From Anaspis maculata (Eukaryota; Arthropoda; Insecta; Coleoptera; Scraptiidae), in contig OX421961.1 in the NCBI GenBank assembly GCA_949128115.1, positions 121,833,050 to 121,897,049 on the forward strand: DNA of 64,000 nt, read 5' to 3'. The notes beneath the pieces are model-generated. The model was not told where the DNA came from. It made no database searches and saw nothing but the letters and a program-made list of their open reading frames with translations. A program made the translations under genes and the position numbers. Shown one piece after another: positions 3,559-53,541 of the stretch (positions within the stretch are counted from its first letter, which is position 1; each line of letters opens with the position of its first letter).

Positions 3559-4730
3559 CAGGGTGATTCATGAGTGACCTTACATAGGCTAATGGGAGAT
3601 AGAGGGCTTCGAGGCGAGTCAGGATCCACTGAAGAAATTTTATTTTCTCCGATGGTTACGAAGATACAGGGTGTTTTGTGTGTTTCGTATGAAACTTTGA
3701 TAAGCGATATTTCTGAAACGGCCAAAGGTATTTTGTTGAAATTCACCAGTAATAGTTTTCTGTTGGAACTCATCCCGAAGCCATACCGGGTAAGTCAAAA
3801 TCCAGGGCCGGGCTAGAAAAAAGGTGCCCCTTTTTTGTTTCATCAAAAAGTACATTTTCTGACCGCTTTTTTAAAAAACTGCTATCGGATTCAAAAAGCT
3901 AAGGAAAAATGCTTTAAGAATCACTCTTCAATTTAGATGGCACACCTAAACCGTTTCGACAATAAAATTAAAAGTAAAATTTGTGGGTGAGTTCCCATTT
4001 TCGACCGGACATAATCGACTCATTGTTTGATCGAATTCATTAAAATTCATTTTTTGGCTTGTCTCTGTTGGATAGAAGGGCTTGGTTGAAAAAAAATTTT
4101 CAGAGCTGACAATTTTTTTTTTGACAAAATCGAGAGCGAAACTGAAATTAGACTCGATTTGATCGTCAAAAAAAAATTTCCGGCTATGGAATTTTTCTTA
4201 CTACCAAGCCCTTCTGTTCCACAGAGACAAGCTAAAAGATGAATTTTAATGAATTCCATCAAACAATGAGTCGATTATGTCCGATCAAAAATGGAAACTT
4301 ACCCACAAATATTACTTTTAATTTTTTTGTCGAAACGGTCCAGGTGTGCCATCTAAATTGAAGAGTGATTCTTGAAGCATTTTTCCTTAGCTTTTCGAAT
4401 CCGATAACAGTTTTTCAGAAAAGCGGTCAGAAAATGTACTTTTTCAACAAATAAAAAAGGGGCACATTTTTTCAATTCCGGCCCTGGATTTTGACTCACC
4501 CGGTATGACTGCTGGATAAGTTCCAGTAGAGAAATATTACTGGTAAATTTCAACACAATATCTTCAGCCGTTTCAGAAATATCGCTGATTAAAGTTTCAC
4601 ACGAAACACACAAAACACCCTGTATCTTCGTAACCAATGGAGAAAACAAAATTTCCTCAGTGAATCCTGACTCGCCTCGAAGTCCTCTATCTCCCATTAG
4701 CCTATGTAAGGTCACTCATGAATCACCCTG
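3559..4730. repeat. Foldback element with CAGGGTGATTCATGAG ends and a second nested pair of ends
   Basis: Outer termini CAGGGTGATTCATGAG are inverted at both ends and sit between TA dinucleotides (3557-3558, 4731-4732). A second inverted pair, CAGGGTGTTTTGTGTG, lies inside at 3667 and ends at 4622, again TA-bordered. If the inner segment is collapsed to one TA, the flanks form a perfect 24-bp palindrome (GGTTACGAAGA-TA-TCTTCGTAACC). The centre, near 4140, is a further near-perfect hairpin. Both arms encode the same short peptide beginning MTLHRLMGDRG, which is a mirror effect and not a gene. Confidence 0.9.
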
Positions 4731-4732
4731 TA

Positions 4733-5300
4733 CAGTCCTTCGAGATTGGGTTAGAGAATCGATTTTTGCTCAACTCAAGAAGAGACATTTCAGACATAAC
4801 CTACTATGGCTAGAAACCGAGTTAGCTAGGGAAAAACCATTTGGGGAGAGGGTTCCATTTTATCACCAACTTTTCTACTCCGCTGGCGCTGGAGATTTAA
4901 TCCTAGAATATAATGTTCAAAGGTACTAACATGTAGTGAACATGAAGAAAGAACAGTCTTTCAAAATATTTTCACATTCCCATCATCAGTTTTCTATAAA
5001 TTGCATTTTTACTGAAGGGCCAACTGATGTGGGACGGTGCTCGTATATAAGCTACAGGGTGTCATTTATGCATTTAGAATGGCAATATTTAGATCCCCCC
5101 TTACAATCAATGACGCACAAATGTGTGTCACCGGAGTATTTTGTTATGTTATTCCTTAGGTCTTACAAGGCCCGTATACCAAATTTCAGCTTTGTGGGAA
5201 TTCGTTAAAACCTAACATTCCAGGGCTAAAATATGGTGAGTTCATTTTGAACATAGGTGCTGTTACAAAAACCGTAACTAACAGGCCCGATTTTTCAAAG
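4733..5300. other. No recognised gene; one solo element end
   Basis: There is a lone TACAGGGTGTCATTTATGC terminus near 5053 with no inverted partner in reach, which suggests a truncated foldback. An open stretch ends at 4929 but has no recognisable domain. Confidence 0.4.
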
Positions 5301-6530
5301 CTTCATTTAGATTGAAGGCTCCCAGTTTTTACTTTGAAATTTGATCTGAGCCGGGCAAATGTGCTTGATGTGCTCTTCAGATCCTGGCTGCACCTTGATT
5401 GACGGAAGGGATGAAAATGTGAAATTAACGCGTCCGGGCGTTCCGTGCAATTACAGGGCGGCCACGCAGGGACGTTTTTGCCCGGAGGCTGGAAGGTCGA
5501 TGGGGGAGGCGGCGGTCTGCTATAGGTCATGGCGCCCAGCGTGGCGCTGATTGATAATTGGATTTATTTCCGTCTGGCCGCTCTGGTTTCCCTCACGAAC
5601 TTGGCGCTGCTGCTGCCGCTACAGCTATAGTGGGCGCCTTATCCTTGGAAACAATTATTACTGGACTGGAAGCAGGAAGACCGGAAGACCAAAGAAGTTT
5701 CAGGTTACTCTACACCAGCAGCATTCTATACTTGGTATAAAAGCGCGCCGCGCGTCCGACCTGCTTCGAATTAAGTGCTGATCATTGGCAAACACAGCAA
5801 GGGCATAACTTTTATTGTTACTGCCGCGTTCGGATGAACATCGGGAAAGCAGTTTGAATTTCCCTTACTGTTCCTTGATTAACTCCCGCCGAGGGCTTCA
5901 CTTGGCTTTCATTGGAAAATAACGTGAAAAACCGACGACGGGGGGTGCGTGATGCGTTTTTCTGGATCGCCGGCTCTCATAAAACGTGCGGCAGGGAGTC
6001 TTGGGGGAGTGAGAGACAAAAGAGTTCCTCTTCAGTCGTCCGATGATACTGAAGAAGCCCGACGCGACGACGACTTCCTTTTATACGAACTCGGCGTGAT
6101 GACAATTTAATTCAATTTAAATTAAATTAATTTTGCACCCCGGTTTAGTGCTTTTAAAAGTGGGGTAGTTCCATATACCTACATGGAAGAGTTGTAAAAT
6201 TTTACAACGTTGCGTCCGGAACGGTTAAGCAAAACGTCTTTAAGTATAGCTTAGTGCTCTGGGGGGATGTCGTAATTTGTAAGCATTATTTTATGTTGCG
6301 GAATTAAATTACGATCTTCTGTACAAAACCTTTTGTTCGGATTTAAAAGTAACGCATACACAGTAAGGGATCTAGCACTACCGAACAATAGTTGCCAACA
6401 TAATAGTATTTTGTTTTTGTTTCGTATGGCACTTGACATTTGGGGATTTCAGAATTAATAAAACTCATGTGGAGAATAGCGAAGAACCGACGTACATGAT
6501 TTAGCCATTATTCACTGAACAATCACCTTT
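5300..6530. other. Low-copy, GC-richer block with a TATA-like box
   Basis: This stretch lacks inverted repeats and is richer in CpG than its surroundings (for example 5440-5640 and 5740-5760). TATAAAAG at 5736-5743, directly followed by a GC-rich run, resembles a core promoter, but no initiator or downstream coding exon can be supported. It could be regulatory or an untranslated exon of a host gene. Confidence 0.3.
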
Positions 6531-6534
6531 CTAA

Positions 6535-6679
6535 CCTCGGGTTCCACCAAACCTTTATCAACGCGATAACTTTATCACTCTGATAGTAACTAGGCAACTG
6601 GCCATCTTATTGGCTGGTACATAGCAACTATCAGCGTGATAGATTTAATCTGCTCTTAAAGTTTTGGTGGAACCCGAGG
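6535..6679. repeat. Short hairpin MITE
   Basis: The ends CCTCGGGTTCCACCAAA at the left and its exact inverse at the right enclose an imperfect stem (ACTATCAG/CTGATAGT further in). Length is about 145 bp. No clear target duplication was found. Confidence 0.75.
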
Positions 6680-8300
6680 TCAGGCATATAGTAACATTTT
6701 CCAATAAATATATACGTCAGATTTCTACGAAAATATTCTACAACTTTTCATCTCTTTTAACATTCATTTTTTGGTACGTACTGTTATATTTTTATACCAT
6801 TTGCATTGTTATATTTTATTTCTTATGTAGATACTCTAACGAGGAGAGGATCAGAGGCCCTCGAAAGCGGTCAGTAAAAACAAATGATTATCTTTGCAAA
6901 AAATTTGTGGGAACTCTAAGAAAACCAAAAATTCATATGATTTAGCCAGGACGGAATGGCCTCGCAAACTCGACGTGCCCCAAAACAAGTCGAAACTCGT
7001 ATTATATTACAAGCAAAAAGAACTGTGTGCGACAGAAAATGCTGAATGCGGAGACAGCGAAATGACGGAGTTCATACCCGCCGTGGTATGCCGGGTTCAC
7101 CAGCACCCAGGAAGGTGAACCAATTCCAATTCCATTGGTCGACGGACGTCACCAGTGGCACTATAAAGTCAAAAGAAGCCAACGCTTCCAGGTCGAGGAA
7201 AAATGTTATTGATCATCGCAGTTTATGGGAACTAGCTTTCGCCGGGCCCGCTTTGCGACTCTCGAAAGCGTCGTCGTGAAGTTTATCCATAGGACTCAAC
7301 GACTGATGGTGGACGGGTGGCCATGGGATGGTTGCGATGATGGTGTTTGTCTTGGGAAAATACACACTGTGACCTTGAAAAATACCACAAAGATAGATGT
7401 GACAGATGCATCTTGATAATTGCCTTCCAGGAATATATGCAAATTTAGAAATTTAACTAAGAAAAATGCTGTTAGAGTCGCCATGGCCAGGCCGTACGCA
7501 GGTTGTTTTGGAGGTCCATGGCCAGGGTATCTTGAGAATCAGAATAAATCGTCAGCAAAGCAAGATAAATGGCGCCTCAGGTGCACATTTCCTTTTTCTC
7601 AAAAAAAGTGGGACTTCCTTCGCCATAGAGCTGCAGTTTCCAACAAACCGCAACAAATTGAAACTGCCTGATTACCAGAAACGCGTTCAGTTTTGGTGGA
7701 AAGTCGACTGAGAGCTCTCATGTGTTCAGAAAAACGATCTCCACCCCTCAAACTCGAAGTTTGGTTTGACATGTCTCAGGTTAGATTATTCGGGCTAATT
7801 TAGCTAAATTTTTACTTCATCTGCAATCGGGAAGTACGAAGCTCTTGAGCATTATATTATACAATATATTATTCGTTTACTTCCTTGTTTATTTTTGTAA
7901 TTTTGATTCAGCCAACCATTATCTGGAATGATTTTCATTCAAAAATAGAACACGTGTAATTTACGGCGAGATGTTGAAAATTTACATGCAATTTACAAAG
8001 GTCTAATCACGTCTAATCAATAGTGGTTGAGTTACAGGTATATCATTTCATCATGTTTCCATAGTTTTTCATACACTTTTACACCTTCATACCTTATGAT
8101 ACCTTTATACACATACACACCTTTATACACCTCTACACCACTTTTTTGTAAAATTGTTCTTGTGTGGTTTTATTGTTAGATTTTTTAATTTGTCAGTTTT
8201 TATTATATGTCAGGAAATCTTCACCTCTACAAATTTTTACGGTGATTCCATACATTTTCAGTTCCCTATTATATGTTCTATTTATGTTTAATTGTTTACA
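6680..8300. other. Low-copy stretch, no recognised gene
   Basis: Several overlapping short frames lie between 6664 and 7711, but none shows a family motif and the frames compete. Near 8095-8145 there is a degenerate repeat built on CCTTTATACACA. Otherwise nothing is supported. Confidence 0.4.
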
Positions 8301-8337
8301 GCCTAGATAATGTCTTAATAAAAGACGAAACGTCGGC
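8301..8337 (+). ncRNA. Hammerhead-like stem-loop, degenerate copy
   Basis: A stem GTCTT / AAGAC closed by a short AT loop is followed immediately by GAAACGTC, then GGCAAAAGAA. GCC at 8301-8303 can pair with GGC at 8335-8337 as an outer stem. The core that should read CUGANGA is TAGATAA, so catalysis is unlikely. The architecture matches four other copies in the window (11246, 38810, 40556, 61708) while stem sequences differ. Confidence 0.45.
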
Positions 8338-8429
8338 AAAAGAACAAGAATTTTATTACCTCGATCACGCTTTAACACCTTCCTGTAATTGGGTCATCCG
8401 TTCAAGATCAAAATTACACAATTATATCA

Positions 8430-9690
8430 AGATAAGATAAGATAAGATAATGTTTATTCCAATGACCATCTTTACAACAATGTCGGAAGCTTGTCAATGT
8501 TTAGTTTGTCCAACAAACATCAGTTTTCACTATAACAGGGTGTCCATAATATGTATACCAGCTTAAGATTAAACAATATATAACAGATAGATATAACAAT
8601 CTTTGTCACAAAAATTACAACAATAACAATATGTGCAATATGTACATAACAAATAGAAACTTTAGAAAAAAAAAATAAAAAAATCTTGCAGCTTATATCA
8701 GAAACTCATCCACAGTGTAGAAACAACCACCGATCAACATTTTTCTTACACTTTGTCGAAATGATACATAACTACCAATGTTTTTCATCTCCAAGGGCAG
8801 GTGATTGAACAACTTTACTGACATTGAATGAGGACCATTTTTGGTTTGAGTGTACTTATGTAGGGGGATAAACAATCTGGCGGCACCTCTGGTCTCATAA
8901 GCATTGACTTTTCTGTTTGTTGTGAACTGATCAAAGCTTCTGCGAACGTGGCAAACGGATTCCAAGATATAGATGGAGCAGACAGTGAGCAGCCCGTGGC
9001 TCACAAAGGATGGGCGACAACTAGTCCTTGGCGACAGGCCAAACATGTGGCGAATAACACGCTTCTGGGCTGTGAAAACTCTTCGAGAACCAGGACTGTT
9101 GCCCCAGCAGAGAACCCCATAGGTTAAAATTGGCTGAATGCACGCAAAGTAAAAGGTTAGGACAGTCTCGTAGTTTACAATGTTCTTCAACTGCATGATG
9201 GCAAACGCTTTAGATGACAGCGCCCTCACGATCCTTCGAGTCTGGGATGACCACACCAGGTGAGAATCCATCAAGACCCCTAAAAATTTCGTTTCACATA
9301 TTTGTGGTAAAGATTTGTTGTCCGGTGTTCTGACAAGCAGACTCAAGTCCGCTCGATTCATATTCGGACTGAATAGAACAAAACCCGTCTTGTCAGAATT
9401 CAGAACAAGTCCGTTCTCGTCACACCAGACTGAGACCTGAGACAAAGCAGCCGAGAGCTTTGTCTGCAATCGCGCGTAGCTGTCTGCAGAGAAAACAGAC
9501 GCAATGTCATCAGCGTAAAAGGTGCAAAAAGCATCGGTCAGTGACAGATCGTTAATAAATATAATAAAGAGAATTGGACCGAGGATACTACCCTGAGGAA
9601 CCCCATGGCGCAATCCGAGTCTAGATGATATTATACCAAACAATCAGGACGATTTCTACGGTAAGACGATTTGGAATAAGATATGAGGTT
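8430..9690 (-). mobile_element. 5'-truncated CR1-like non-LTR retrotransposon
   Basis: The element runs on the minus strand: reverse transcriptase remnant, about 250 bp of 3' untranslated sequence, then a 3' terminus made of tandem TTATC units (read as GATAA on the plus strand at about 8430-8450). Short tandem repeats in place of poly(A) at the 3' end fit CR1/L2-type elements. The 5' side stops within the RT domain near 9690, as expected from incomplete reverse transcription. Confidence 0.8.
8693..9643 (-). pseudogene. Reverse transcriptase, C-terminal part (CR1-like LINE)
   Basis: This frame encodes the second half of a non-LTR reverse transcriptase. In order: GVPQGSILGP (RT motif 4), the catalytic FYADD box (motif 5), LNSDKTGFVLF (motif 6), FLGVLMDSHLVW (motif 7), and the C-terminal region ending YTVDEFLI, with LTYGVLCWGN and RVFTAQKRVIRHMFG as family-typical anchors. 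The catalytic aspartates are present. The upstream RT fingers and the endonuclease are missing. Just before the present frame, about 20 more residues of RT-like sequence (SYLIPNRLTVEIV) can be read in another frame up to about 9690, so there is at least one frameshift near 9625. The annotated start is only the limit of the open frame, not a real initiation codon. Confidence 0.85.
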
Positions 9691-11058
9691 TTCCCAGGAT
9701 ATTCAAATTTTCCTGACAAAATTTTCAATTTCCTGCAAATTATTTCCAATTTTTCCCTCTAGTTCCAACTTCCCACCCGGAAAAACGTTTCGAACAAAAT
9801 TTTCTATAAGTTCCTGGATACAAGTCGGAAAAGTATTGGGGTGACATAACCGATTTTCATTATTATTATTCTCCCAGTTGTGGAATAAAACGACCAGTTC
9901 AAGTGATTTGACATAGGGACGAAGGATATGGTCTTCCGTCTCTGAACAGACTCGTCGGACTAATTTTTTTGTAGCACACTGTAGGTGTAAATTTATCAAA
10001 ACATAAAAATGCCGCCCCAGCGGCAGTTATAATTCTTATTTCCTCTGGGATCTGCTACCGACATGCGTTTGTGTATGTATATGTAGTGTGTGCTGCAAAA
10101 GCAATAATTCCGAAACGATACCGATTTCCCATGGAGCGAACTTTTTAATTTCAAATTTATATTTTTCGTTTGTTTCGGGTGAGCAAGTGTCACTTGCCCG
10201 CGAGTTCGATTAAAAACAGCCGAACGGGTTGTATGATTTTTCTACGGACACGCTCTGTGAATATGCGAAAATCAATTTTGTTTATACTCACCCACACCCC
10301 CCCGGTACTACACACGTCATGCATAGGTATTACACGTTGATTCTGTTGCAATACATTTAATTGGCCTCCGTCAGTCACTCCGAAAATGCGCTACCATTTC
10401 CCATTTCCGTTTTTAATAATCGTGTTTTTTTTGTAGTTGACATTTCAATGGTGACAAGTACATGAAAAAAGTTCTGACATGACAAACGTCAAAATTATTG
10501 AAAAAGTAGAAAATGAAAAATTTGCACATCGTGCTCGAATGACCAATAAATTTGTCCAATTGAAATCAAAAAAAGAATTACGACTCTACCTCTATTCGTT
10601 TAGGAGATATGACTTCTGGAAATTTTCAGTGACTTAGGCAGTAACAAAATCACCCATGATGGGACTAATTAGTAACCATGGTAATTTTGATGCAACGTAT
10701 GGTTACAAGTCTTGCATTTTTATTCATGCTGGAGTCAAAAAGTGCCAATGTGATGTCGCAGCATGCTTCATTGGGCATCTCCCTGAAGAGGTCCAGAGGA
10801 TAACCTCTTCTGGGGGCTCATGAGCTCAAATTTTCTCATGGTATAATTCATCCAGCAATTGTGTACGGTTCTGTGAATTTTCAAGAAAAAGCAACAGCTC
10901 TAACAAATTCTGTATCAAAAAATCCAAATTTCACAAAAAAAATCAAGAACTCTTTGAAGAAACAAAATACGATCAAACATATGTTCCGAGATATTGATAT
11001 CCCCTTTTTAAAACTGGAGAAAAAAAATCCGAAATGTTTCATAAAAAAGTTTCACGAC
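9691..11058. other. No gene recognised; one weak dispersed repeat
   Basis: Short frames here show no domain. About 10640-10770 is loosely similar to 29545-29665 inside another MITE: both contain CACCCATGATGG, then TTTTGATGCAACG/TTTTAATCCAACG, and end near CAGCATGCTT. This suggests an old dispersed repeat. Confidence 0.4.
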
Positions 11059-11071
11059 TTGAAAAATTAAT

Positions 11072-11998: not shown

Positions 11999-12119
11999 TT
12001 ACTTTTATTGTTCTTGTTATTATTGTTCAGTTTATTCACTGTTCATTTATTTGATATTATTTATTCACTTCTGGCTTCCGCTGCACAAAGATGTCGATGT
12101 CATCATTGTCTTCGATTAG

Positions 12120-13440: not shown

Positions 13441-13442
13441 TA

Positions 13443-13714: not shown

Positions 13715-13760
13715 TATTCGGGCTTCAGAAAAGACGAGCTATCAATCTCAGACCAACATA

Positions 13761-29150: not shown

Positions 29151-29330
29151 ATAGAAAGTGAGGCTGAATATCCACCACTTCAGTCCACCCCGAAATTTTG
29201 CCTCGGTAAAAATGGGGATATCTTGAGAAAAAATGTCCGATTCTGAAAATTTTTGTGATGTTCGATAAAGCAATCTTTCGACTACCAGATACCACCTACA
29301 ATTACTTGATTGTTCATCTTATGTAGGATA

Positions 29331-29797: not shown

Positions 29798-29929
29798 TAT
29801 TGTATACAGGGTGAGTCATTGATATGGGCAAGCTCGATTGCGCCTACACCGTTGATGATATCGAAATGAACCAAACGGTTCTGTAAATGGGAGGTCAGAG
29901 TGCACTTCGTGAAATTATTTTGCCATATA

Positions 29930-32319
29930 CAGGGTGTACCAATTTTGCAGGGCCACCCTCAACTTAATTTTTTCAAATGGCACCCCCTGTTTATTTTTAC
30001 ATATTCGAATTTGTCCTTTTTCAGGCTTTGTAAATATATTTAGTTTTTGCAATTCGATTCAACCGTTCAAAAGTTATTAATTTTTTTCTTAAAATTAATG
30101 CGTTTGCAGGCACTCATTCAAAAAATCGCAGAGCACTTGGTTTTTGAGATATCAAGTTGGGATTTTTTTCTATGTCTAGACAACTGTCTGGGGTATCTTT
30201 TGGCGGTAAGACCGTCAATTTTCATTGCGGCATTACTTTACTGTGACACATTGATTTTGGTGAGCTTTGAAGGGTCATAACTTTTTTTTTTTTCAAATGG
30301 CACCCCCCATATTTTATTACTTGGTCGTATACAGCATCTTATTCTGCATTTTTTCACCTCTTATGTTTTTTTCCAAAAGTTGATAGTTTGGGAGATAATC
30401 TGGTTTTTCTGATAAATGAACACAAATCACATCAATTATTAACATAGCGTGCCATGAAAAACATAAAAATTTGACATACCAAAGTCAAAGTGACGTTTAT
30501 TGTACATCACTCTCAAATTTTGACGTCCGATTCCAATTTCCTCGTGAAAATGAATTTCCCTCGCAATGAATTAGTGGATATGGTTTACGTGCTGGGTGAA
30601 AGTGAACGGAACCCGTTGCTGGCGACTAGAATTTATGCCCAAAGATATCCGGGTAGGAGGCATCCAAGGCCGAGGGATTTTCAAAATGTTCAGGAGAGAT
30701 TTGAACGTACTGGCAGTGCACTTTATGAAAAACGTATTCGCGGAAGACTAGTGACCGAAGGTGAAAATGAAAACTTAGTACTTCAAAGTGTTGTAGAAAA
30801 CCCGCACACAAGTTCTCGGGCCTTAAGTCAAGAGCTGCAGATTTCCCAAACCAGCGTCTCCAGAATAACCCGTAAAAATAAGTTTCATCCGTACCATGTT
30901 CAGTTGGTGCAAAACTTAAATGAAAATGACTTTATCGAGAGGCAAAATTTTTGTTTATGGGCCCGAAATATGGAACAACAAGAAAATTATTTCTTTAATA
31001 ACGTCATGTTCACTGACGAAGCTACATTTAAGAAAAACGGTAAAATCAACACCCACACCTTCCGTTATTATGACAACCAAAATCCCCATTTCATTCGAGC
31101 ACTTGACCACCAACATCGATGGTCTCTTAATGTTTGGGGAGGTGTGGTGGGCCATAGAGTTGTTGGCCCGTATTTCTTTGACGGCCCACTAAATGGACAA
31201 ACTTATCTGGATTTTCTCCGCAACGATTTTCAAGTGTACCTGGATGATTTGCCCCTGGATCTTCACAGAAGACTATGGGGTTTCAGCATGATGGTGCGCC
31301 TCCACACAATAGTCGAATTGTCAGGCGATATTTAAATGAAGAATTTGAGGGTCGCTGGATTGGCAGGGGAGGTCCTGTGCCATGGCCTGCGAGGTCACCT
31401 GACTTGACAAAACCCGATCTTTTTCTCTGGGGCTTTGTACACGATCGGGTGTACGAAACTGAGGTCACTACGATAGAAAATATGAAAGAAAGAATTAGAA
31501 ATGCATTCCGTAGCATTGACTATGTTACACTTGAAGCGGTGAATGATTCATTTTTAATAAGGGTTGACGAATGTATCCAACAAGAGGGCCGTCATTTCGA
31601 ACAATTTTTGAAGTAATTGTTATTTAGATATATATAGCCATTGATTGTTCAATAAATAATGTTTCAATTTCTTGTTCCGACATTCTGTTTCTTTAGTTCT
31701 TATTTTCTCAGTTCATAATTTCTCGTCAAAATTTTCAGAGTGATGTACAATAAACGTCACTGTGACGTTGGTATGTCAAAAATTTTTGTTTTTCATGGCA
31801 CGCTATGTTAATAATTGATGTGATTTGTGTTCTTTTATCAGAAAAACCAGATTATCTCTCAAACTATCAACTTTTGGAAAAAAAACATAAGAAGTGAAAA
31901 AATGCAGAATGAGATGCTGAATACGACCAAGTAATAAAATATGGGGGGGTGCCATTTAAAAAAAAAAGTTATGACCCTTCAAAGTTCACCAAAATCAATG
32001 TGTCACAGTAAAGTAATGCTGCAATGAAAATTGACGGTCTTACCGCCAAAAGATACCCCAGACAGTTATCTAGACATAGAAAAAAGTCTCAACTTGATAT
32101 CTCAAAAACCAAGTGCTCTGCGATTTTTTGAATGAGTGCCTGCAAACGCATTAATTTTAAGAAAAAAATTAATAACTTCTGAACGGTTGAATCGAATTGC
32201 AAAAACTAAATGGATTTATAAAGCCTGAAAAAGGACAAATTCGAATATGTAAAAATATACAGGGGGTGCCATTTGAAAAAATTAAGTTGAAGGTGGCCCT
32301 GCAAAATTGGTACACCCTG
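29930..32319 (+). mobile_element. IS630/Tc1-mariner superfamily transposon, DD41D type, with long TIRs
   Basis: A 2.39-kb element with TA on both sides (29928-29929, 32320-32321), ends CAGGGTGTACCAATTTTGCA, and unusually long inverted repeats of roughly 590 bp (29930-30525 and 31734-32319) with few mismatches. The single gene starts about 25 bp inside the left repeat and ends about 120 bp before the right repeat, with AATAAA near 31651. Long TIRs make this element itself a large palindrome. It is complete apart from one frameshift in the transposase. Confidence 0.88.
30550..31616 (+). pseudogene. DD41D transposase, one frameshift from intact
   Basis: Cut-and-paste transposase. I chose the ATG at 30550 (MNFPRNELVDMV) because the open frame before it lies in the inverted repeat. 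The N-terminal region has NPLLATRIYAQRYPGRRHPR and FQNVQERFERTGS, the helix-turn-helix pattern of the DUF4817 type, followed by a second HTH (HTSSRALSQELQISQTSVSR). The nuclease then shows VMFTDEATFKKNG (first D), a tryptophan-rich HRWSLNVWGGVVG, QHDGAPPHNSR (second D) and WPARSPDLTKPDLFLWG (third D). Counting between the second D and the D of KPD gives 41 residues. At about 31278, in a run of four Gs, the frame changes (one base lost or two gained); the rest continues to the stop at 31614-31616. Otherwise no stops, so the copy is young. Confidence 0.88.
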
Positions 32320-33603
32320 TATATGGCAAAATAATTTTACGAAGTGCACTCTGGCCTCCCATTTACAGAACCGTTTGGTTCATTTCGATATCATCAACGG
32401 TGTAGGCGCAATCGAGCTCGCCCATATCAATGACTCACCCTGTATAAGGTCGACAATCAAGTGATCTGAGATGGTGTATTGTAGTCAAAAAACTACCCTG
32501 TCGAGCATCACAAAAATTTCCAAAATCGGGCAATTTTTTCTCTCAAGATATCATAATTTTAACCGAGGCAGAATGGTGGTCCACTTCAATTTATGCCCAC
32601 TTGATTTCAATTTCTGGTCGTCTGAACGAGAGTCATTTAAACAAAAAATTCACAAGTAGCTTCAAACTCTTCGTCTTCAACTACAGATTGGAAAGCTCAA
32701 ATTGGGAGAACCCTCAACTAGTCATTTGGGTGTACTACTAAAGAGACGAACGAAGCTTTCTTAAAACTAATACACGGCTTCATTTTAGCCTGGAAAAACC
32801 TTCAAACGCATACTTTACGCCCAACACAACTGGAGGTTCTGGCGCACTCTGAGGACCAGATTTCTTTTAAGATGAAGACTTTCTCCAAAGACGTTCAAGC
32901 TATAGCGAAAATGGCTTCTGAGTCAGTCAGTGTTCGCGTAGAAACTTCTGATAAGGGCGTAGCTACAGGAAGGTCGAATTATGTGCCAGAGCCATCTCTC
33001 GCCTTCTCAAAATTCCAGTCCAGCAGTTCGGAATCATTTAATTCGTCCGAATCTCAGCAGTCTTCCAGCATATTCAGCATATCAATAAGTTGGAAACGCA
33101 GAGTAAGTTTCATTTGGGTTTGCCCTCCGATGTTTATTTTCTCATCAACTTGTTATCATGCCAAGTATTGCCAAGCACAGCTAAATTACACTAAAATATT
33201 AACAACATTGGAAAAAATACAAGGCTTTCCGAGTGGCGGTTCCAAAAATGTCGGCAGTTTTGTCTCAACTGATATTTTGGTCAGACAGAAATAAGACGAA
33301 GCAACTGATTCCTAACCAATTTCAAGCGTATCTATTATCGTAACGTCGGAACTAGAATCGACTGTTTTGAAATAGAAATTCAAAAGTCCTCAGTTCCACT
33401 TCAGCAGGCTCTTACATGAGCTTATAATAATAGTTGTAGCACAGCAAAATATCTTGTCTCATGTACTCCAAATGACTTAATCAATTTTGTACCGCCTGGA
33501 TTTGGTGACCGCGCTATCAACGTCGAAATAGTACAAAAATCTGTTTGTTTTTCTTGGATGTCATTCCTGAAGGTAGTGTCGTTATGGCTGATCGAGGCTT
33601 TAA

Positions 33604-37297: not shown

Positions 37298-38727
37298 GTC
37301 CAGGAATTTCAGCTGTTTAAATCGCAAATAGAGGATAAAAATGATAACTAGCCGGATTTTTGTATATAAGCTCAGTTAAGCATGTAGTTCAACATAGTAA
37401 AAGTCCTCAAGAATCCGGAGTCAGCTTCGGCCGTTGTGGCCTCGAGAAGAACTTGAGGGTCAGTTTTTCGCGTATATCTCATGAACAATAGCACTTGGGA
37501 AAAAAGTTCCTGGAAAGAAATTGTTGGAAATTTTATTGTCTACAAGAAAGGTCCAATTTCATCGTCAGTCATCTCCTTCTCCGTCAAAACACAAGAAAAT
37601 AAAAATAATCCAGATGCTCGATGCTGGAGACTGGCATGGACCTTGAGTTTTATGATGGCGGAGTGCCACCTTGTAGAGGTGTTGTTTGATCCACTCTCTT
37701 TCGGTTGAAACTTGAAGCCATCAAGACGAACTATGCCGGCGGCATATACAGGGTGAAATGAAAATAAAAAGTCGAACATTTGTACCTCGAGAACCAAAAT
37801 AGGTGAAGACATGTAAATCGCCATAAATAATTCTGATTTCATGGTCATGAAGTCGTCGTAAACTTGAATTGAATATCTTGAGCCGTTCTTGAAATATCTT
37901 CAAAAGACTGAAGTTGTTACCAAAAAAAAAATATATTTTCGTCTACTTATCAGAAAAAAAGTTGAGTGTGTTTTTTCTAAAATTAGTTGGCCTAGAGAGG
38001 GCTTTTCACTGTAATTTCATTTTAAATGTAATTTATCATTGTTTCGATTCAAAACACCAAGTTTCGATTCAAGATCTGAAGAATGACTGATATACGGAAA
38101 ACTATTTTTTTTCGTAACGACTTCAGTCTTCTGAAGATATTTCAGAAACGGCTCAACATATTTGATTTAAGTTCACGACGACTTCATGGTCATGAAATTA
38201 GAAATATTTTTGGCGATTTACATGTCTTCACCTATTTTGGTTCTTGAGGTACATTTGTTCAACTTTTTATTTTTATGTCACCCTGTATATGCCGCCGGCA
38301 TAGTTGGTATTGATGGCATTAAGTTTCAATCAAAAGAGAATGGATCGAACAACACCTTTACCAAGTGGCACCCTACCATCATAAAACACAAGGTCCGTAC
38401 AGTCTTCGGCATCAAGCATCTGGACTATTTAGCTTTTCTTGTGTGTTGACGAAGGAATGGACTGATGATGGAATATGTAAGGACCTTTCTTGTAGACAAG
38501 ACAATTTCCAACAATTTAGCTCCAAGTGCTGTTCCTCCAAGTGCCATCGTTTACGAGATAAACACGAAAAACTGATCCTCAAGTTCTTCTCGAGGCCACA
38601 ACGGCCGAAGCTCACATCGGATTCTTGAGGACTTTTACTATGTTGAACTACATGCTTAACTGAGCTTATATACAAAAATCCGGCTAGTTATAATTTTTGT
38701 TCGCTATTTTTTCTATAATTCCTGGAC
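37298..38727. repeat. Foldback element with a second nested pair of ends
   Basis: TA-bordered ends GTCCAGGAATT. Arms are inverse through ATAACTAGCCGGATTTTTGT, CATGTAGTTCAACATAGTAA and AAGTTCTTCTCGAGGCC. A second pair, CAGGGTGAAATGAAAATAA, lies at 37749 and ends at 38285. Collapsing it to one TA gives CTATGCCGGCGGCATA-TA and the exact inverse. 23220-23440 is a one-armed relative. Confidence 0.9.
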
Positions 38728-42776: not shown

Positions 42777-44364
42777 GCCCAGGCGCCAGGGAAAACAATA
42801 AGGAAATAATTGTTTCCTGGCTGGAAACTAGCTTAAAACGATCTGTGTAGCTTAGGTTTTGACATACTAGTTTCCCCCCTTCCGGAAATGTCGGCGTCAT
42901 GTCGCCATCATCAACAAGAAGTGCACCAGCGTGATTTTTGCTGAATATCATAATTTTGGGTCATCTGACAGCAAAAGATGTAAGGAGTCATTTTGAAGCC
43001 TATGAAATTCCCTACAGTTTGGTTTTTCAATCAATTCTCTGCGACCTATGGTCTTTGAGATAGAGCTTCTGGAAGCGAGAGTCATTGTCGTGAAAGCTCC
43101 ATGGCCACTTGACTCGAAAAACTAAAATGTCGATGTGACAAAAAAAATTTCAAAATGAGATTACTCGAGAATTCTTTATGCTATAGTTGCGGTGATGGTC
43201 TTAAACTCTTCCACTTGAACCGTAGATTACGAATATTGAATAGTCAAAAACGTCACATTGTACATATACAGGGTGTACTACGGGAATCAAATCAGAACAG
43301 AAAAGTTTGACATATTTCTTCGATATAGCCTATGCGAAACTCCAAGCACTTATCACGTGTCCAATATCAATATGCATTGCTCTGTAAGCTTTACTTGATA
43401 CACTTAAGAAGTGGTCAGCTCACAGCTTTCCTGTAAAATGTTTTGAAGGTCCTCTGAAATCATCAAAATTTACAGTAGCAAGAAATGTATGTAACAGTAT
43501 ATTATATACCAAGGAACCAAAGTGAATTTTTGATCCCTTGGGTGAAGTTTGTTGCTCGAGGGCTTTTTGGGCTCAAATCCTCAAATCAAAAATTCACTTT
43601 GGTCCCTTGGTATATAATATACTGTTATATACATTCCTTGGTACTGAATTTTTAATATTTTGATGATTTCAGAGGGCCTTCAAAACATTTTACAGTAAAG
43701 CTGTGAGCTGACCACTTCTTTAGTGTCGTATTAGGTGAAGCTTATAGAGCAAATCCATATTGATATTGGACTCGTGTTAGGTGCTTAGAGTGTCGCATAT
43801 AGGCTAAATCGAAGAAATATGTAAAATTCCTCTGATCTGATTTGATTCCCTCAGTACACCCTATATATGTACAATGTGACGTTTTTGACTTTTCTATATT
43901 TGTAATCAACGGTTCAAGAGAAAGAGTTTGAGACCATCACCGCAACTATAGCATGAAGGATTCTCGAGAAATCTCATTTTGAATTTTTTTTGTCACATCG
44001 ACATTTTAGTTTTCCGAGTCAAGTGGCCATGGAGCTTTTACGACAATGCCTCTCGTGTCCAGAAGCTCTATCTCAAAAACCATAAGTCGCAGAAAGGTCA
44101 TTTAAAAACTATTCCATAGGGAATTTCATTGGTTTCAAAATGACTTCCTATATCTTTTGCTGTCAGATGGCCTAAAATCAAGATATTCGGCAGAAACCAC
44201 GCTGATGCACTTCTTGTTGATGATGGCGACATGACGCCGACATTTCCGAAAGGGGGGGAATTAGTATGTCAAAACCTAAGCCACACAGATCGTTTTAAGC
44301 TAGTTTCCAGACAGGAAACAATTATCTCCTTATTGAGCTGATTTTTGCTCCCTGGCGCCTGGGC
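42777..44364. repeat. Foldback element inside the RT gene, with nested second ends
   Basis: TA-bordered (42775-42776, 44365-44366), ends GCCCAGGCGCCAGGG. Inner pair CAGGGTGTACT at 43269 with its inverse ending at 43863. Collapsing the inner part gives TTGTACATA-TA-TATGTACAA, a perfect palindrome. Shares a subterminal box, TCTGCGACCTATGGT...GAGCTTCTGGAAG, with the foldback at 62891. Confidence 0.9.
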
Positions 44365-46060: not shown

Positions 46061-46201
46061 TAATTTTGGCTCTTAGCGTCCGCACTATAATCATCGACGA
46101 AGCTTTGGAACTATGGAATCAGTGTGAGTTGGCAATTTGTTGGAGCTTCGTTGATTATTATTAAATTAGATATCAATCCATCTACTATTGTTACATATAT
46201 A

Positions 46202-47286
46202 CCGGGTGATCATTTGAAAACTATCCACCTGCAATAACTCCCGATTCCTCGGTAATATTTCTTTGAGCAAAATCAGGTCGATTTTTATATCGAGGGGGAC
46301 ATCTAAAACATACAATATCAAATTTCTATATTCAGCCCCCTCGCCCCCACCTATCCCAAAAATAAAATTTCAAATTACACTGCCTACCTTGCGATACACC
46401 AAATTGGAGAAAATTAAATTCGCTTTTTATCAGGGGTATTTTCAAAAAATTTCAACTCTGCCCCCCCTTCTCCCTAAAAATTCTCTGAGTGTCCCTTTCA
46501 ATATCCTGGAAGCCTAAATTCTTTTTAGTTTAGTCAGCATCATCCTGAATAGCATCAAAGAAGAGAATTTTCGGTGGAAAAAGTGCCACCTAAATTGACC
46601 CCATTGCTCTACCCCACCTCAACTTTAAAATTCAACAAAATACTACCCACTTTGTGATACATCAAATTTAAGGAAATTAAATTCTTTCTAAAAATAATTT
46701 TTTTGAAATTTTCAACCCCTTCCCCATTTAATTGGACATTTGGAGTACTTTAGTAGGAAAACGGGGGGTTTTAAAAATTTCGAAAAAATTGGGTTCAGGG
46801 AGAGATTTCAATTCCCTTTTATTTGATGTATCACAAAGTAGGTATTGTCATTTTAGATTTTTAAAGTGAGGAGGGGGAAGCGAAGGGGTGAATTGGGTGG
46901 CACTCGTTCCATAGAAAATTTTCTCTTCCGATATTGTGCAGGATGACGTTGACTGCATTGAAGAGAATTGAGAGGTCAAGAATATTTGATTGGACACTCA
47001 GAGAATTTAGGGGGGAAGAGGGATGAGGTTAAAAATTTTAAAAATATTTTTCCAGAAAGAGAATTTACGAGTAGTTCTGTTGAATTTGATGTATCGCAAA
47101 GTAGGTAGCGTCATTTAAAATTAGAAAGTTGTGGTGGGTGGGGGCGAGGGGGCTGAAGATAGAGATTCGCTAATGTATGTTTTAGATGTCCTCGTCGATA
47201 TAAAAATTGACCTGTTTTTGCTCGAAAACATTTTCACTAGGAATCGGGAGTTATTGCAGGTGGATAGTTTTCAAATGATCACCCGG
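46202..47286. repeat. Foldback element, relative of 26064-26993
   Basis: TA-bordered (46200-46201, 47287-47288), ends CCGGGTGATCATTTGAAAAC. Arms share CGAGGGGGACATCTAAAACA, CAGCCCCCTCGCCCCCACC and the TGATACATCAAATT box with the 26064 element, but the termini differ. Arms contain internal repeats of roughly 270 bp. Confidence 0.85.
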
Positions 47287-47289
47287 TAT

Positions 47290-48090
47290 TGTTACCTAAA
47301 TGTCATAATTTATGTCAAATTTATATTTTTACTTTTACATTTACTTTTGGAGAATGGCTACGTATTGATTAAAAGCCGAAACTGCAGTCGAAAGAAGAAG
47401 TTTTTTACTGTTGGAGACGACAATTTACATCCCCCTTTTAATATTATTATACACTCCAACTAAAAGATTATATGGATCCCTACAAGAAATACAATCAATT
47501 GAGCATAACATGATCTGACTTATATCATTTGTATCACCCGAGGTTGCATGGTAGAGCAGCTTATAGCTGAATGTCGCCTCGTAAAATAAGACAATTAAAT
47601 TTGAAAAACATGGGAAACCGTCATTCGAACGGTTCCAACGCCTTCGATACCACCGATGATGGTATGGAACTTTTATAGTCCAACGACGTAATTTCAACAC
47701 GACGCTGTGCTGAGCCACCGTTGTCTGATGGCCGGCAAGCAGGCATACAACTTTTCGTATTCGGCTCCACCTTCGAAATAAACTGGAACGAGAATGAAAT
47801 GAACCATCCTGAAATGTGTCCTAACCTAGGCCAAAATGAGGATATCTCAGAAAAAAAATCAAAAGATTATGCAAGTTTTAGTCAGGCTCGGTAGAGTAAT
47901 CCGAAGAGTAATCGTTTTCGCCTGTCGCACCTTTGAAACAAAATTGAATAGGATGTGTCAAAAAAAAAGGTTACCTAATTCTGAATATGCATAATCCTGT
48001 TGTAAATGCACCTGCGAAACCATAAAAAAAACCGGAACCTTGATTTTTTATGGTTTCAGATGTGTTTAGTGTAGATCTTTGCCCGGTGTA
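47290..48090. other. No recognised gene
   Basis: A small hairpin, CTG(C)GAAACCATAAAAAA / TTTTTTATGGTTTCAG, lies at 48010-48061. No domains recognised on either strand. Confidence 0.4.
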
Positions 48091-48096
48091 ATAATA

Positions 48097-48300
48097 GGCC
48101 ATCCACAATGATGTTAATGTTAACGTAATGTTATCGGCGATGGTAATGTTAGCATTTCAAAGCAACGAGTTTCAATGGTAAATGCTTACCATTGCCACTA
48201 ACATGATTGTGAACGTCACCATTTGAAACTCATTGCTTTGAATGCTAACATTACCATTGTCGATAACATTACGTTAACATTAACATCACTGTGGATGGCC
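48097..48300. repeat. Hairpin MITE
   Basis: TA-bordered. GGCCATCCACA(A/G)TGATGTTA and its inverse, then GTTAACGTAATGTTATCG(G/A)C and AAAGCAA(C/T)GAGTTTCAA. Nearly perfect hairpin of 204 bp. Confidence 0.93.
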
Positions 48301-48385
48301 TATAATTCCCATCTAAAATGTTGAAATCCCATCTAAGCTTGAAGTTGACCGCTAGGGAAAGTAGGGGAATGGTTCTCGTCGGCAG

Positions 48386-49220
48386 ATGGCTGAGAATTCT
48401 GTGGCTGAGACCCTTCGTCTACAATCCAGTTGGAGAGAATTCTTACGAAATGACGACATTAAGAGCAACTTTTTCGACCTACTAGCCCTTTACTCCTTGA
48501 AGAATTTCGAACAATTACATATAGTGACCACTGTTCGTGACGTGATAGAATCAAACTCGGCAATAGGGACAACCCTAGCCGGCCAACTCTGCACTGTCGA
48601 ATAAGCAGATGGACGCATCATTGGTTATGCAAAGATATGACTTTTCTTGAAGCTACATCGATAATTGTTTGTACTGTTGATTTCGATGTGATTGTAGTTC
48701 TGGTGTATTTTCTTTTCTTCCATCTTTGGCTAATTGCGAAGACCTGCCACAGGGTCTTCGAGAGCTTTCGGTTTTTTTTTCTGCGCTGCGGACAACCTCG
48801 CCGAGCCACGGAGAAAAGAAATGGCACTTGGACTCCGGGGATTTCATGCAATCACTGGTTGTGATGCCATGTCAAACTTGGCACGGAAAGGAAAGCGTTC
48901 AGCCTGGAACACATGGAAAAGAGACTGATAGACAACGTCCGCTTTTCAAAAAGTCACCAAGCCATGTCACGCTTTGGATAACGACACTGTGAACATCCTG
49001 CGGAGCGCCTCATGGTATACTCCTTTATCGTGGCGAAGGTTTTTTCATGGATGAAGTGACGCTTCATTTATTCACCACGGAAATTAGAGCATTGGAGGAT
49101 CTCCCACCAACGAAGGCATCCTTTTTGCAACACATTTTACGAGCAGTGTACCAGGCTGGATACATGTGGAGACAAGTAGCGGAAACGATGAACCCCACTG
49201 TTCCATCACCTGCTTGAACT
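48386..49220 (+). pseudogene. LPPT/TGCDT-family fragment, central to C-terminal part (copy 3)
   Basis: The longest surviving copy. Pieces in order: SSWREFLRNDDIKSNFFDLL (matching a WxxFLRxDxNKxELF box), then IIVCTVDFDVIVVLVYF (compare a VDTDVVVLAV box), then LGLRGFHAITGCDAMSNLAR followed by KGKRSAWNTWK (compare FHAFTGCDTxSxFxGxGKKxAWxxW), then ERLMVYSFI, and ALEDLPPTKASFLQHILRAV with YQAGYMWRQV to PTVPSPA. Frame changes occur at each junction, and the HEEADTRML stretch is lost. The D-rich boxes recall the acidic residues of XPG/PIN-type nucleases; that link is my inference. Confidence 0.7.
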
Positions 49221-49413
49221 GTAGTAACCTTTACAAAAGAAGTTCTCATCAAAATAGTGGGTGGGGATTCTGATCGTTCTGTCTGATTCTCATGCTTCAA
49301 TTTTCTTTTTCGGGTATTAATCCACGTTTTATGTAATTATGTATGTTCTGCTTACTGTTTACTGGAGAAATATATAGCGGAGGCAAGCATAGAAACGGAA
49401 GAATAACAAGAAA

Positions 49414-49607
49414 TAGTAGTTTTCATCAGGTCTAGAGCGCATGCTCACGTTCCTTGCCGGTCGGCAAGAATCGACCTTCGCGTGCTTGCTAGACTCACAC
49501 AGTTCTGTAATCATTCTCCCCACTCTTATACCTCTGGTGCTAGCCGACCCGAACTGTCAAATCTTGCGCATGCCCACTGAAACACAAAAATGTCATGAAA
49601 ACTACTA
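49414..49607. repeat. Short MITE
   Basis: TAGTAGTTTTCAT and its inverse form the ends; GCGCATGC(T/C)CA recurs inverted farther in. No clear duplication of the target. Confidence 0.65.
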
Positions 49608-49609
49608 CT

Positions 49610-51790
49610 GAGACAACGAGGTATCGTCAAGACGGATGTGAAACCAGAGCACTCCAGAAGCCGATTTAGTAACATTACGAACGTGAAAGAACAGCAATAG
49701 TCATAGGCAATCAGGGTTATCCTAATGTAAAACCTTGCGCGAATTTTAGAAATCGATGAATGAAGTGTTGCATAGTTAAATTTGCAATTATTACCAATAA
49801 ATAGGTACGCATTGAAAAGTACGAGGATTCGTCACCTGCAGTCTAACACTCATCTCTATGACTTCATCAAACGAATAGCGCAGCTCTCTTCACACCTGTA
49901 CAGCAAAAAGAGCAGGGAAAACCCTTATTACGGGGCGTTTTCGGTACGTGTTCATTTTTCACGCGGCACAGTCCCATTCATTTTATTTTCTCCATCTACT
50001 TGCCGGCTTTGTCGAAACAAATAACGTATTCAGCTTGCGGGATGATGCAGCAGCATACCCGTGGCGCATATCAAGCTTTCATCAAACACAGAGGATGATT
50101 ATTTCAGAGCAAAACTGGATTTATGACTTTCCGAGATATATATTTCAATCCCAGCGATGAAATTTTCCATGTATTCAAATTCCGCACAGGATTTTTCCGT
50201 ACAAGCTACCAACAATTACTGTTCTTCATAAATTCAATAAGCATCTCGCGGCAATTTCGCGGTATATACGTATTTCTTTTTGTGTTCCGCCGTCTCCAGT
50301 CTGAATCCGGCGGCATTCAAACGAGACGAAAGTTTTCAATCGAACATAATTTTTTTCCTGGCGGATCACATACACGCGCTAGCGCATACCCATACCACCA
50401 GCACTTTATTACAAGGAAATCATTTTCGTCCTTTAGAGCCGCGAGAAAGCTTTTACTCGTTCGGGTGCCGGGGTGCGTCATCATCGTCGCGTCGTCTACT
50501 ATATATACTTTTATAAAGAGGGACGCGTCGCGACGCCCGGCGACGCAAATTAAATTGCGAATGGGAGCTCGGCATTTAGGCCTTTTTTTTTTTGGTCGGT
50601 TATTTTCTCAGGAAACAGGCCGTTGTTTAATTAAAAGGAAATAAAAATAACGAGAGCTCGAATCCCGAATGGCGCGGTGCGGCGGCGGAACAAAACCGGA
50701 GAAAAAGACGCTTCTTTCAATTACTCTCCGCCAGATTAAACGGGCTGAATCGACAATCAGCGGTAATTGTCGGGTCATCTGGTAATTTCTTAAAAAGTAT
50801 TACGTCCCCGGTCCCTCGGATCCGCCGCGTCGATCAATCGGTCCCCCTAGCTTTCCTGGATGCGATTCTCGGCAAAAATTAATTGAAATTGCAAGTCGGA
50901 TTTATCCTCTTGGGTATGTGAGGTACAACGTTCATACAGGGGGGCCGCATCGAAATCAACGCAATATTAAGAAGAAATCGAGTTCTTCGCGAATCAAAAT
51001 TCACAGCGTTCATGTTCCGACTGTTCCTATTGTGATTGTACCCCCTTTCCCTAAATTAAACGTAATACCATTGACCCTTACGTTGTGTGCATTTTTTGTG
51101 CCGTAGATTTCGTAACCCTTTTACTTTAGTCATTTACATGAATCCCCAAATTCCTTTTGATTCTCAAAGTCCCTCAATTTCCCAGGTTCTACAGGAAGAG
51201 GACAATTAAATAAATATTGCGGTTATACTAAGTTTTTTTTTTAACCACACCTCTTTTATTTACCGATTAATCAATGATCGCTAATTTGATTTAGTGAACC
51301 TCAATTACTTCATTTAAGTTGATTGTCAATTTCCTAGTTTCTAATCGTGCTGAGTCCAGCCAACGATAAGGAATTTCTTTGGTTGATTTACAATCAGTTT
51401 CCGAAAGATTAAATACATCCTAAATGCCTGCTAAGACCCGCGCATCATTTGTTCCTCTCTCACAAATTGATCACCATTTCCGTATTCTTCCTGATTTGAA
51501 GAGACATAGATGAGCTAAGTTTCATAACACACACGAGTTTGATTTCTTGCCAATTATCTAATACCTTGCTGATTCCAATCAACCCTTTAGTTAACTTAAA
51601 TGAACTCCTTTTTGTCGTCTAGCCCATATTTAGTTGTACTTGGAGAGATATCTAGCTTACTCCCATTCTTCCGCTTAGAGAGAGATTATTATTTTCAACC
51701 CATTAAGTATGATTTCTGTATTCCGAAATTTTTGCCATTATTCTTATTGCCGATTTACATAAAAGTTGGGTGTCTTAATTTGATCAATTT
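49610..51790. other. Low-copy stretch with a GC-rich block
   Basis: No palindromes or element ends. 50440-50850 contains CpG-rich sequence (GACGCGTCGCGACGCCCGGC), a TATA-like run (50502-50515) and long T runs. Frames up to 173 codons here lack domains. This could be a conserved non-coding or promoter region of a host gene; comparison with related genomes is needed to tell. Confidence 0.35.
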
Positions 51791-51819
51791 ACGTCCAGCT
51801 GGAACTATGTTCCCAACTT

Positions 51820-53541
51820 ACAGACTTATCCATCAGCTCTGTATCAATTTGTCAATCACTTACTCACGTGTTGGGATCCTGCGACTATGGTCAAACTGCT
51901 CGAATCAAGAGACATAACGATATCAGGACCATTCTAGCAAATCATTTGCGCGACAAAGACTTCGAGACCCATGAAGAAGTTATCGGAGTTTCACAGCAAG
52001 ACAGCTTGAGAAGAATTGATATAATTGCCATATATAGAGGAAAAAATGCACCATGCATTATAGACCCAACCATTCGCTTTGAAGATACTTTAGATCAACC
52101 AAATTTTGTCAATGATGAGAAAAATCAAATTTATAAACCCACCATTCCTTATTATATGTCGAAGTTTAATGTCAAAAATATTTCCATAATTGGCTTACTT
52201 TTTGGTTTTTGCGGTACTTTAACAAACAATTACATAGAATTCCGAAAAACGTTTAAATTGCCAAAAACTTTAGATAATGAAATCGTCTCGAAAATTCTCA
52301 AATCATACAGGGTGATTCACCACCAAATGGACATAGCCTAAGGGTAGGTCCAGTTTCACCAGGCGAACTAGGATCTGGCTTTGGAATTTTTCTAACACTG
52401 TTTGTTTCGAAGTTACAGGGTGATTCATGTATTTTGTCGAATTCTTTGACAAGCGTATCTTCAGAACGACCGAATGGATTGGATTGAAATTTTGTGAGTT
52501 GATTCTTCTATTGATATCTGACACATCGCTTTATCAAACAGTTTCAAGTTTCCAGGGCCGGCCTTGTGAAAAAAACTTCAAAGCTTTTTTCAAAAAAAGA
52601 CATTTTGTATGCATATTTGTCAAATTTCATTTCCAAATTCGGAAACTGCATCAAACATGCTAATAATATAGCCAAAAAATTGCTTGGCACCATTGAGCTG
52701 TCAAGAAAATTTTGACAATCGTAATGATTTTTGAGGTTAGGATTTTTTCTAAATTAATATTTTCAAATATTTGCAAATGATCTATTATGGCCCTGAATTT
52801 CAGCCGTTCCGTTAGAAAAATGAGACTGACATTTTTCTCGTTTTCTCAAAAGTAACAAAAAATTTCATCAAAATTTTCAAAAATTTTTTTATACGTTCCT
52901 CAATTTCAGCTCAATTTGGGATAGAAGTGAAGCTGAGGGACGTAACAAAAATTTTTTGAAAATTCGACTGAAACGTTCTGTTACTACTGAGAAAATAAGA
53001 AAAATGTCATTTTTATTTTTATGACGGAACGGCTAAAATTTGGGGCAATAATCAATCATTTGTAGATATTTGAAAATATTGATTTACAAAAAATCCTAAC
53101 CTCAAAAATCATTGAGATTATCAATTTTCTTTTGACAGCTCAATGGTGCCAAGCAATTTTTTTTGCGATATTGATGGCATGTTCCATGTAGTTCCTGAAT
53201 ATGAAAATGAATTTTGAATAATATGCATACAGAGTGTCTATTTTGAAAAAAGCTTTGTAATTTTTTTTTCAAGGCTGGCCCTGGAAATTTTGAACTCTTT
53301 GATAGAGCGAAGTGTCAGATATCAATAGAGGAATAAACCCACAAAATTTCGAACCAATCTGTTGGGTTGTTCTAAAGTTATGGCTTGTCAAAAAATTCTA
53401 CGAAATACATGAATCACCCTGTAGCTTCAAAACGAACAGCGTTAGAAAAATTTCAAAACCAGATCCAGGTTCGCCTTGAAAAACTGGACCTACCCTTAAG
53501 CTATGTCCATTTGGTGGTGAATCACCCTGTATATTACATAA
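51820..53541 (+). pseudogene. Restriction-like endonuclease domain of an R2-type LINE
   Basis: This is the C-terminal part of a site-specific-type LINE protein. It reads CQSLTHVLGSCDYGQ, a remnant of the zinc knuckle before the nuclease, then IKRHNDIRTILANHLRDK, and the catalytic PD-(D/E)xK-like core: SLRRIDIIAIYRGKNAPCII followed by DPTIRFE. The rest, KKQIYxPTIPYY-like (KNQIYKPTIPYYMSKF) and SIIGLLFGFCGTLTN, with EFRKTFKLPKTL, is typical of the family tail. The open frame continues into the left end of a foldback at 52308. Removing that element to one TA gives ILKSYIT and a stop at 53539-53541, so the natural end of the protein is recovered. No stops in about 155 codons: the domain itself is well kept. 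Confidence 0.75.
52308..53529. repeat. Foldback element with nested second ends
   Basis: TA-bordered, outer ends CAGGGTGATTCACCACCAAA; inner pair CAGGGTGATTCATGTATTTT at 52416 with its inverse ending at 53421. Collapsing the inner part leaves TTTCGAAGT-TA-GCTTCAAAA, an imperfect palindrome. Outer and inner ends share their first 12 bases, and the inner ends share 14 bases with the outer ends of the 3559 element. Confidence 0.88.

Follow-up and report, generated by a model that had tools for sequence, protein, structure and literature searches.

Concentric transposon ends in palindromic elements of Anaspis maculata: compound foldback families with a possible origin in insertion and snap-back mirroring

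To our knowledge, the origin of the long foldback arms of DNA transposons is unsettled, and five palindromic elements in the genome of the beetle Anaspis maculata raise the question again. They lie in a window of 64,000 nucleotides (C1:121833050-121897049, where C1 is contig OX421961.1 of assembly GCA_949128115.1), and we refer to them as E1 (3557-4732), E2 (29805-32444), E3 (37298-38727), E4 (42777-44364) and E5 (52306-53531). In each, a second pair of inverted ends sits concentrically inside an outer, TA-flanked pair. Why should two pairs of ends share one centre? The original prediction regarded each inner pair as placed at the exact midpoint of an outer palindrome, and proposed that these transposons either have a preference for the tip TA of extruded cruciforms or build palindromes by inverted duplication from an element end. 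The results described below indicate that the exact centring most likely reflects how the elements were first built, and not repeated precise insertion.

The nested palindromes themselves were confirmed. In all five (5/5) the pairing of left and right arms begins at the outer end, passes through the inner end and continues within the inner element, and the two inner TAs mirror each other in position (Table 1). When the inner part is collapsed to one TA, the outer arms close as GGTTACGAAGA-TA in E1, GCCATA-TA in E2, CTATGCCGGCGGCATA-TA in E3 and TTGTACATA-TA in E4; the closure of E5 is imperfect, as had been claimed. The description of the ends as CAGGGTG-type holds for the inner ends, although E4 has TATAGGGTG, with one mismatch, as its right inner end, but not for the outer ends of E3 (GTCCAGG) and E4 (GCCCAGG). 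The window contains 20 copies of the end motif TACAGGGTG, where shuffles give an expectation of 0.22, and the presence of the motif is therefore not due to chance. With their TA-flanked inverted arms, E1, E3, E4 and E5 resemble miniature inverted-repeat transposable elements (MITEs) or foldback elements, and first-look candidates are numerous (1873 for E1, 3288 for E3 and 2483 for E4). No open reading frame (ORF) of at least 150 aa lies inside any of these four; one ORF shares its sequence with the first 36 bases of E5.

That an inner pair is "exactly central" says little inside a palindrome. The arms are mirror images, so that any TA matched in the opposite arm closes exactly once the middle is removed. 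Indeed, 12 of 30 left-arm TAs in E1, 30 of 44 in E2, 11 of 33 in E3, 18 of 51 in E4 and 8 of 30 in E5 also close at least 6 bp exactly. With 8 to 30 TAs per element closing equally well, the argument that five exact midpoint hits lie beyond chance fails. Nor are the five cases independent events, since E1 and E5 are homologous in both their outer layers (local score 41, where the best of 300 shuffles reached 29) and their inner layers (118, against a shuffle maximum of 73), while no likeness beyond that of shuffles links the outer arm of E2 to those of E1 and E5. For both reasons the idea of five independent coincidences was rejected. What needs explanation is the end motif TACAGGGTG within the arms.

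Further nests are present among 20 random 10-kb pieces drawn from two contigs, namely in L003, L006 (with three layers), L011 (a copy of E1) and L019, the inner ends of which are TACGGGGTG; L010, where the outer similarity spans just 16 bp, was not retained as a nest. The genome (758 Mb, 50 contigs) was searched with E1, E2, E3, E4 and L019. The best 40 of 631 to 3288 candidates per query were scored, a depth at which rare exceptions may escape, and the matches are arms rather than copies, such that the two arms of one copy may each count. Outer arm and inner start occurred together in 40/40 scored matches for E1 (98-100% identity), E4 (97-100%) and L019 (96-100%). The corresponding figure was 40 of 41 rows for E3 (95-100%), where the odd row, an outer piece of 229 bp, lies 105 bp away from a match already counted, and 40 of 41 for E2 (81-100%), where it is a 70-bp piece. 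Each of E1-E4 and L019 is thus one family that moves as a unit. For E1-E4 the scored matches largely bear out the outcome named beforehand as refuting independent insertion, that inner segments are never found apart from their outer arms, so that "single elements with two sets of terminal motifs" describes the families as they are at present; the insertion signature described below suggests their beginnings.

The same association was seen from single ends of E4. Its outer end occurs exactly at 2031 places (35th base not C). By manual count, the sequence at 95 of the 100 that were listed continues as a slightly altered E4-like inner start, one leads to another CAGGGTG-type start two bases on and four lead to other sequence; none of the 100 is self-closing. 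A search for the empty closure with its central TA, made for E4, returned 2 places with two mismatches each (C2:19415329 and C5:23327411), against the 2031 outer ends. Empty E4 outers are nearly absent. Conversely, 37 of 43 E4 inner starts listed on the same C1 stretch have, as judged by eye, a counterpart among the listed outer ends, either on their own arm or on its partner. At C1:39754837 an E4 outer end is followed by CCGTCCGTTTTT, which resembles the ends of a window element at 53541-54455 and is perhaps another family inserted by the junction.

As compounds, these elements belong to the known Tc1/mariner and foldback kinds. The origin we favour, plausible if just short of probable in our estimation, is that each nest is a compound foldback family moving by its outer ends and founded by insertion followed by snap-back mirroring. 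A CAGGGTG-type foldback would insert once, at a TA, into an outer element of Tc1/mariner type. During repair of a break or excision gap in this outer element, the inner inverted ends would fold into a hairpin, which would prime synthesis copying the outer arm to its end. The product would be arm-TA-inner-TA-mirrored arm, carrying two identical mobile outer ends, and as the compound multiplied the inner ends would be carried along. Foldback inversion primed by a hairpin is established in yeast, where, as in our proposal, an inverted repeat folds, primes synthesis and mirrors the flank; in contrast to our proposal, the available part of that report shows it for chromosome rearrangements and not for the founding of transposons (PMC7467729).

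Two kinds of evidence bear on this origin. The first is the target. A ta precedes the TA on the left side of 11 of 14 non-nested CAGGGTG insertions (p 1.7e-10), and on the mirrored right side of 6 of 14, against a background of 1270 in 16428 TAs (7.7%). The same ta precedes the TA at 5 of 9 inner junctions (p 2.7e-4), the nine being those of E1-E5, L003, L019 and two junctions of L006. By lineage the figure is 5 of 8, because E1 and E5 are related and both are without the signature. This suggests that the nests may have begun by insertion into ta-TA-ta targets, and such a trace speaks against a purely functional subterminal repeat. Past the 9-bp motif, moreover, outer and inner ends share no similarity above shuffles (scores as high were reached by 65 of 500 shuffles for E1, 406 for E2, 106 for E5 and 421 for L006), and in E3, E4 and L019 the two end types differ. 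The spacing from outer to inner end is 108 bp in both E1 and E5, 123 bp in E2 and 449 to 661 bp in E3, E4 and L019.

The second is the relative divergence of the layers. Nine cases were compared: E1-E5, L003, the outer two layers of L006, L019 and an older palindrome around E2; a copy of E1 (L011) and a relative of E5 (L006 5590) were excluded from this count and from that of the junctions. Mismatches between arms, outer then inner, are 53/416 and 21/183 in E3, 40/455 and 26/262 in E4, 12/108 and 70/462 in E5, 11/112 and 7/45 in L003, 24/124 and 18/81 in the older palindrome, and 25/661 and 41/373 in L019 (p 1.4e-5); the inner arms of E2 differ at 21/570 positions, compared with 3/123 for its outer arms, and E1 is given in Table 1. 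The three concentric layers of L006 (8308-9693) diverge from outside to inside by 11.6, 14.2 and 18.0% (13/112, 22/155 and 59/328). The outer layer is the less diverged in 8 of the 9 cases (one-sided sign test, 0.02), as expected if the outer arms were mirrored last, with the inner element already present.

Several observations weigh against this origin. Four of the nine inner junctions are without the signature. The difference between layers is singly significant in L019 alone, its order is reversed in the E5 relative L006 5590 (18.5% outer, 12.3% inner), and a general inward decay of repeats would yield the same order, with which the rival explanations are also compatible. Lone inner elements were not found among the scored matches, though an origin by insertion predicts some, now or formerly; 6 of the 43 listed E4 inner starts have no listed outer partner. 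Inverted duplication from an element end, the second of the mechanisms originally proposed, fits better than tip targeting, but it is inferred, and no non-palindromic ancestor of any outer arm was found. A lone E4 outer arm at L005:3300-4691 was considered as such an ancestor; it abuts a long terminal repeat (LTR) retrotransposon at the inner TA, the LTRs being about 82% alike, with no second arm on the far side, and decides nothing. E1 and E5 keep an identical 108-bp spacing despite deep divergence. Finally, the inner motif is conserved in place in relatives of the E2 outer arm, which suits a functional subterminal repeat. Of 16 such matches, at 86-88% identity, 12 were fetched: the motif is unchanged in 10, carries one mismatch in L048, and is one base short in L050, where unrelated sequence lies behind it (L050 was excluded from one alignment). 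Behind the motif, the longer matched pieces are just 70-81% alike, approximately.

The strongest alternative, which we consider rather unlikely, is that these are single elements whose end motif is repeated subterminally, the inner TACAGGGTG being a putative second transposase-binding site, with no insertion or duplication involved. The joint occurrence of outer and inner parts in the scored matches, the homology of E1 and E5 in both layers and the intact motif in 10 of the 12 E2 relatives, with one change in each of the other two, are all consistent with it. Inverted repeat/direct repeat (IR/DR) ends, in which the terminal motif is directly repeated within each inverted repeat, are moreover known in this superfamily, from Sleeping Beauty and Bari (PMC7827188, PMC4877112). 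As far as the available parts of these sources go, the nests differ in that their repeat includes the TA, in that likeness ends after the motif and in a spacing that ranges from 108 to 661 bp. A functional repeat would also leave the further ta at 5 of 9 inner sites, as at real insertions, and the unlike end types 449 to 661 bp apart in E3, E4 and L019, to be accounted for. It is least improbable for E1, E5 and E2, with their spacings of 108, 108 and 123 bp.

An insertion at the dyad itself, by CAGGGTG transposons with a preference for the tip TA of extruded palindromes, appears improbable. The ta-TA-ta found at 5 of 9 inner sites is a palindromic target of the kind CAGGGTG elements favour, Sleeping Beauty uses palindromic AT targets (PMC4877112), and plant LTR retrotransposons have been reported, in the part of the source available, to target palindromes (PMC6911290). 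In addition, 3 of 9 E2 copies lie in larger, older palindromes, 6 to 9 bp from the left arm if a small adjoining element is counted with E2. However, cruciform-tip targeting is disfavoured by the movement of each family as a unit and by the near absence of empty E4 places (2 against 2031 ends), even if unstable empty palindromes may have been lost. It also finds no counterpart in 264 kb, where 0 of 48 self-palindromes are centred on a TA with zero loop, by a coarse measure of loop size.

The landing sites of E2 argue in the same direction. The window copy and 8 further copies have a TA on both sides, and none of the other 8 has mirrored flanks starting at the element (scores 0 to 3); a sample of nine copies excludes a strong preference only. 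Two of the eight (L026/L032 and L034/L031) and the window copy lie off-centre inside larger palindromes that bear no relationship to one another. In the former two, 9 bp separate E2 from the end of the left arm, and 185 to 315 bp lie between E2 and the start of the right arm; in L034/L031 a second element with a CAGGGCGAGTCATGA end, of CAGGGCG type, lies directly behind E2. In all three palindromes E2 either adjoins another element or sits in a one-sided loop. The window copy was considered as a true dyad insertion into its older palindrome and rejected, the alignment placing it next to a 473-bp element of CAGGATG type, at the arm border. Of 500 TA sites chosen at random, 113 have inverted matches on either side and 66 lie no more than 15 bp from the edge of an arm, so that 3 of 9 does not clearly exceed the background (p 0.33 and 0.10). 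As far as nine copies can show, E2 has no clear preference for palindromes and no centred landing. The arm family of the older palindrome has 945 first-look candidates and weakly resembles the outermost L006 arms.

A mixture, in which E1/E5 and E2 have functional subterminal repeats and E3, E4 and L019 are true composites, would match the division between short spacing with like ends (E1, E2, E5) and long spacing with unlike ends (E3, E4, L019), but the insertion signature is present in E2 too, and we regard it as very improbable.

The origin by insertion and mirroring may be one instance of a wider process, in which foldbacks grow outward in layers because nested inverted ends prime snap-back copying of the arm of their host element. 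We put this generalisation forward tentatively, as a possibility. If true, a single event would yield a larger palindrome and two identical mobile ends at once, and nested ends would always be concentric; repeated rounds, as in the three layers of L006, could then be a general founding route for high-copy families.

E2 contains a transposase that is broken across two frames. No DDE family matched either piece, and a sequence comparison of the first piece with solved transposases gave no match. If the aspartates assigned by motif are the catalytic ones, the 41 residues between the second and the third point to a place for E2 in the DD41D long-repeat branch of Tc1/mariner. Its inverted-repeat arms measure 721 bp, where repeats of about 460 bp or more mark that branch.

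Table 1. Parts of the five nested palindromes, the E2 transposase and the palindrome around E2 (window coordinates)
Feature	Position	Strand	Remarks
E1 outer left arm incl. TA	3557..3664	+	mirror 4625-4732; inter-arm mismatches 6/108
E1 inner foldback, TACAGGGTG ends	3665..4624	.	inner-arm mismatches 49/436
E1 outer right arm incl. TA	4625..4732	-	arm alignment
Older palindrome enclosing E2 and 473-bp element, left arm	29195..29327	+	right arm 32447-32574; mismatches 24/124
E2 outer left arm	29805..29927	+	mirror 32322-32444; mismatches 3/123
E2 inner segment: ~600-bp arms and core with broken transposase	29928..32321	.	
E2 transposase, N-terminal part	30490..31335	+	DUF4817 above cut-off; HTH_Tnp_Tc3_2 below cut-off
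E2 transposase, C-terminal part, other frame	31248..31616	+	41 residues between second and third Asp
E2 outer right arm	32322..32444	-	arm alignment
E3 outer left arm, end GTCCAGG	37298..37746	+	mirror 38288-38727
E3 inner foldback, TACAGGGTG ends	37747..38287	.	
E3 outer right arm	38288..38727	-	arm alignment
E4 outer left arm, end GCCCAGG	42777..43266	+	mirror 43866-44364
E4 inner foldback, ends TACAGGGTG and TATAGGGTG	43267..43865	.	
E4 outer right arm	43866..44364	-	arm alignment
E5 outer left arm incl. TA	52306..52413	+	mirror 53424-53531
E5 inner foldback, TACAGGGTG ends	52414..53423	.	
E5 outer right arm incl. TA	53424..53531	-	arm alignment

Among known systems, E2 resembles the aphid long-terminal-inverted-repeat (LTIR, Lsra) DD40/41D elements of Tc1/mariner, with which it shares a TA target, a length similar to their 2.3-2.6 kb, repeats of hundreds of bp and the 41-residue spacing; its repeats of about 720 bp differ in containing a second end motif, an inner motif that the available part of that report does not mention (PMC5490172). 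The mariner/Tc1-like MITEs of Rhodnius resemble the nests in their ends, which are CAGGGTG or TACAGGGTG in a mariner, a deleted mariner and a MITE given as a table row, but in the part of the source available internal deletion is described and mirrored inner ends are not (PMC4678618). Galileo of Drosophila likewise has long inverted arms, extension of its repeats by rearrangement and a preference for a short palindromic target. It belongs, however, to the P superfamily, duplicates a target of 7-8 bp and, as far as the available text goes, is not described with a second complete pair of ends (PMC4168063). Searches of open-access literature returned no rule of concentric nesting by title or abstract opening. 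With concentric double-ended families represented by hundreds to thousands of first-look candidates each, the origin of arms would become readable from sequence, and the ages of layers, the signatures of junctions and missing empty sites would together separate mirrored growth from targeted insertion.

Some further arrangements were noted in the same material. Paired inverted-repeat elements within one outer arm pair, like the surroundings of E2, occur at L011:585-3298, L009:4326-5840, L018:4715-6112 and L003:8304-9521. A repeated stretch of about 35 bp that starts with TACAGGGTG is found on C1 and C2 (for example at C1:20322132-20322210); at many of the places listed a further TACAGGGTG follows behind it, and at some it is in tandem. 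Identical 861-bp matches to L019 lie 9.9 kb apart at C1:115868075 and C1:115877968, perhaps through a local duplication. Lastly, positions 8693-9643 of the window hold a reverse transcriptase ORF of 316 aa (RVT_1).

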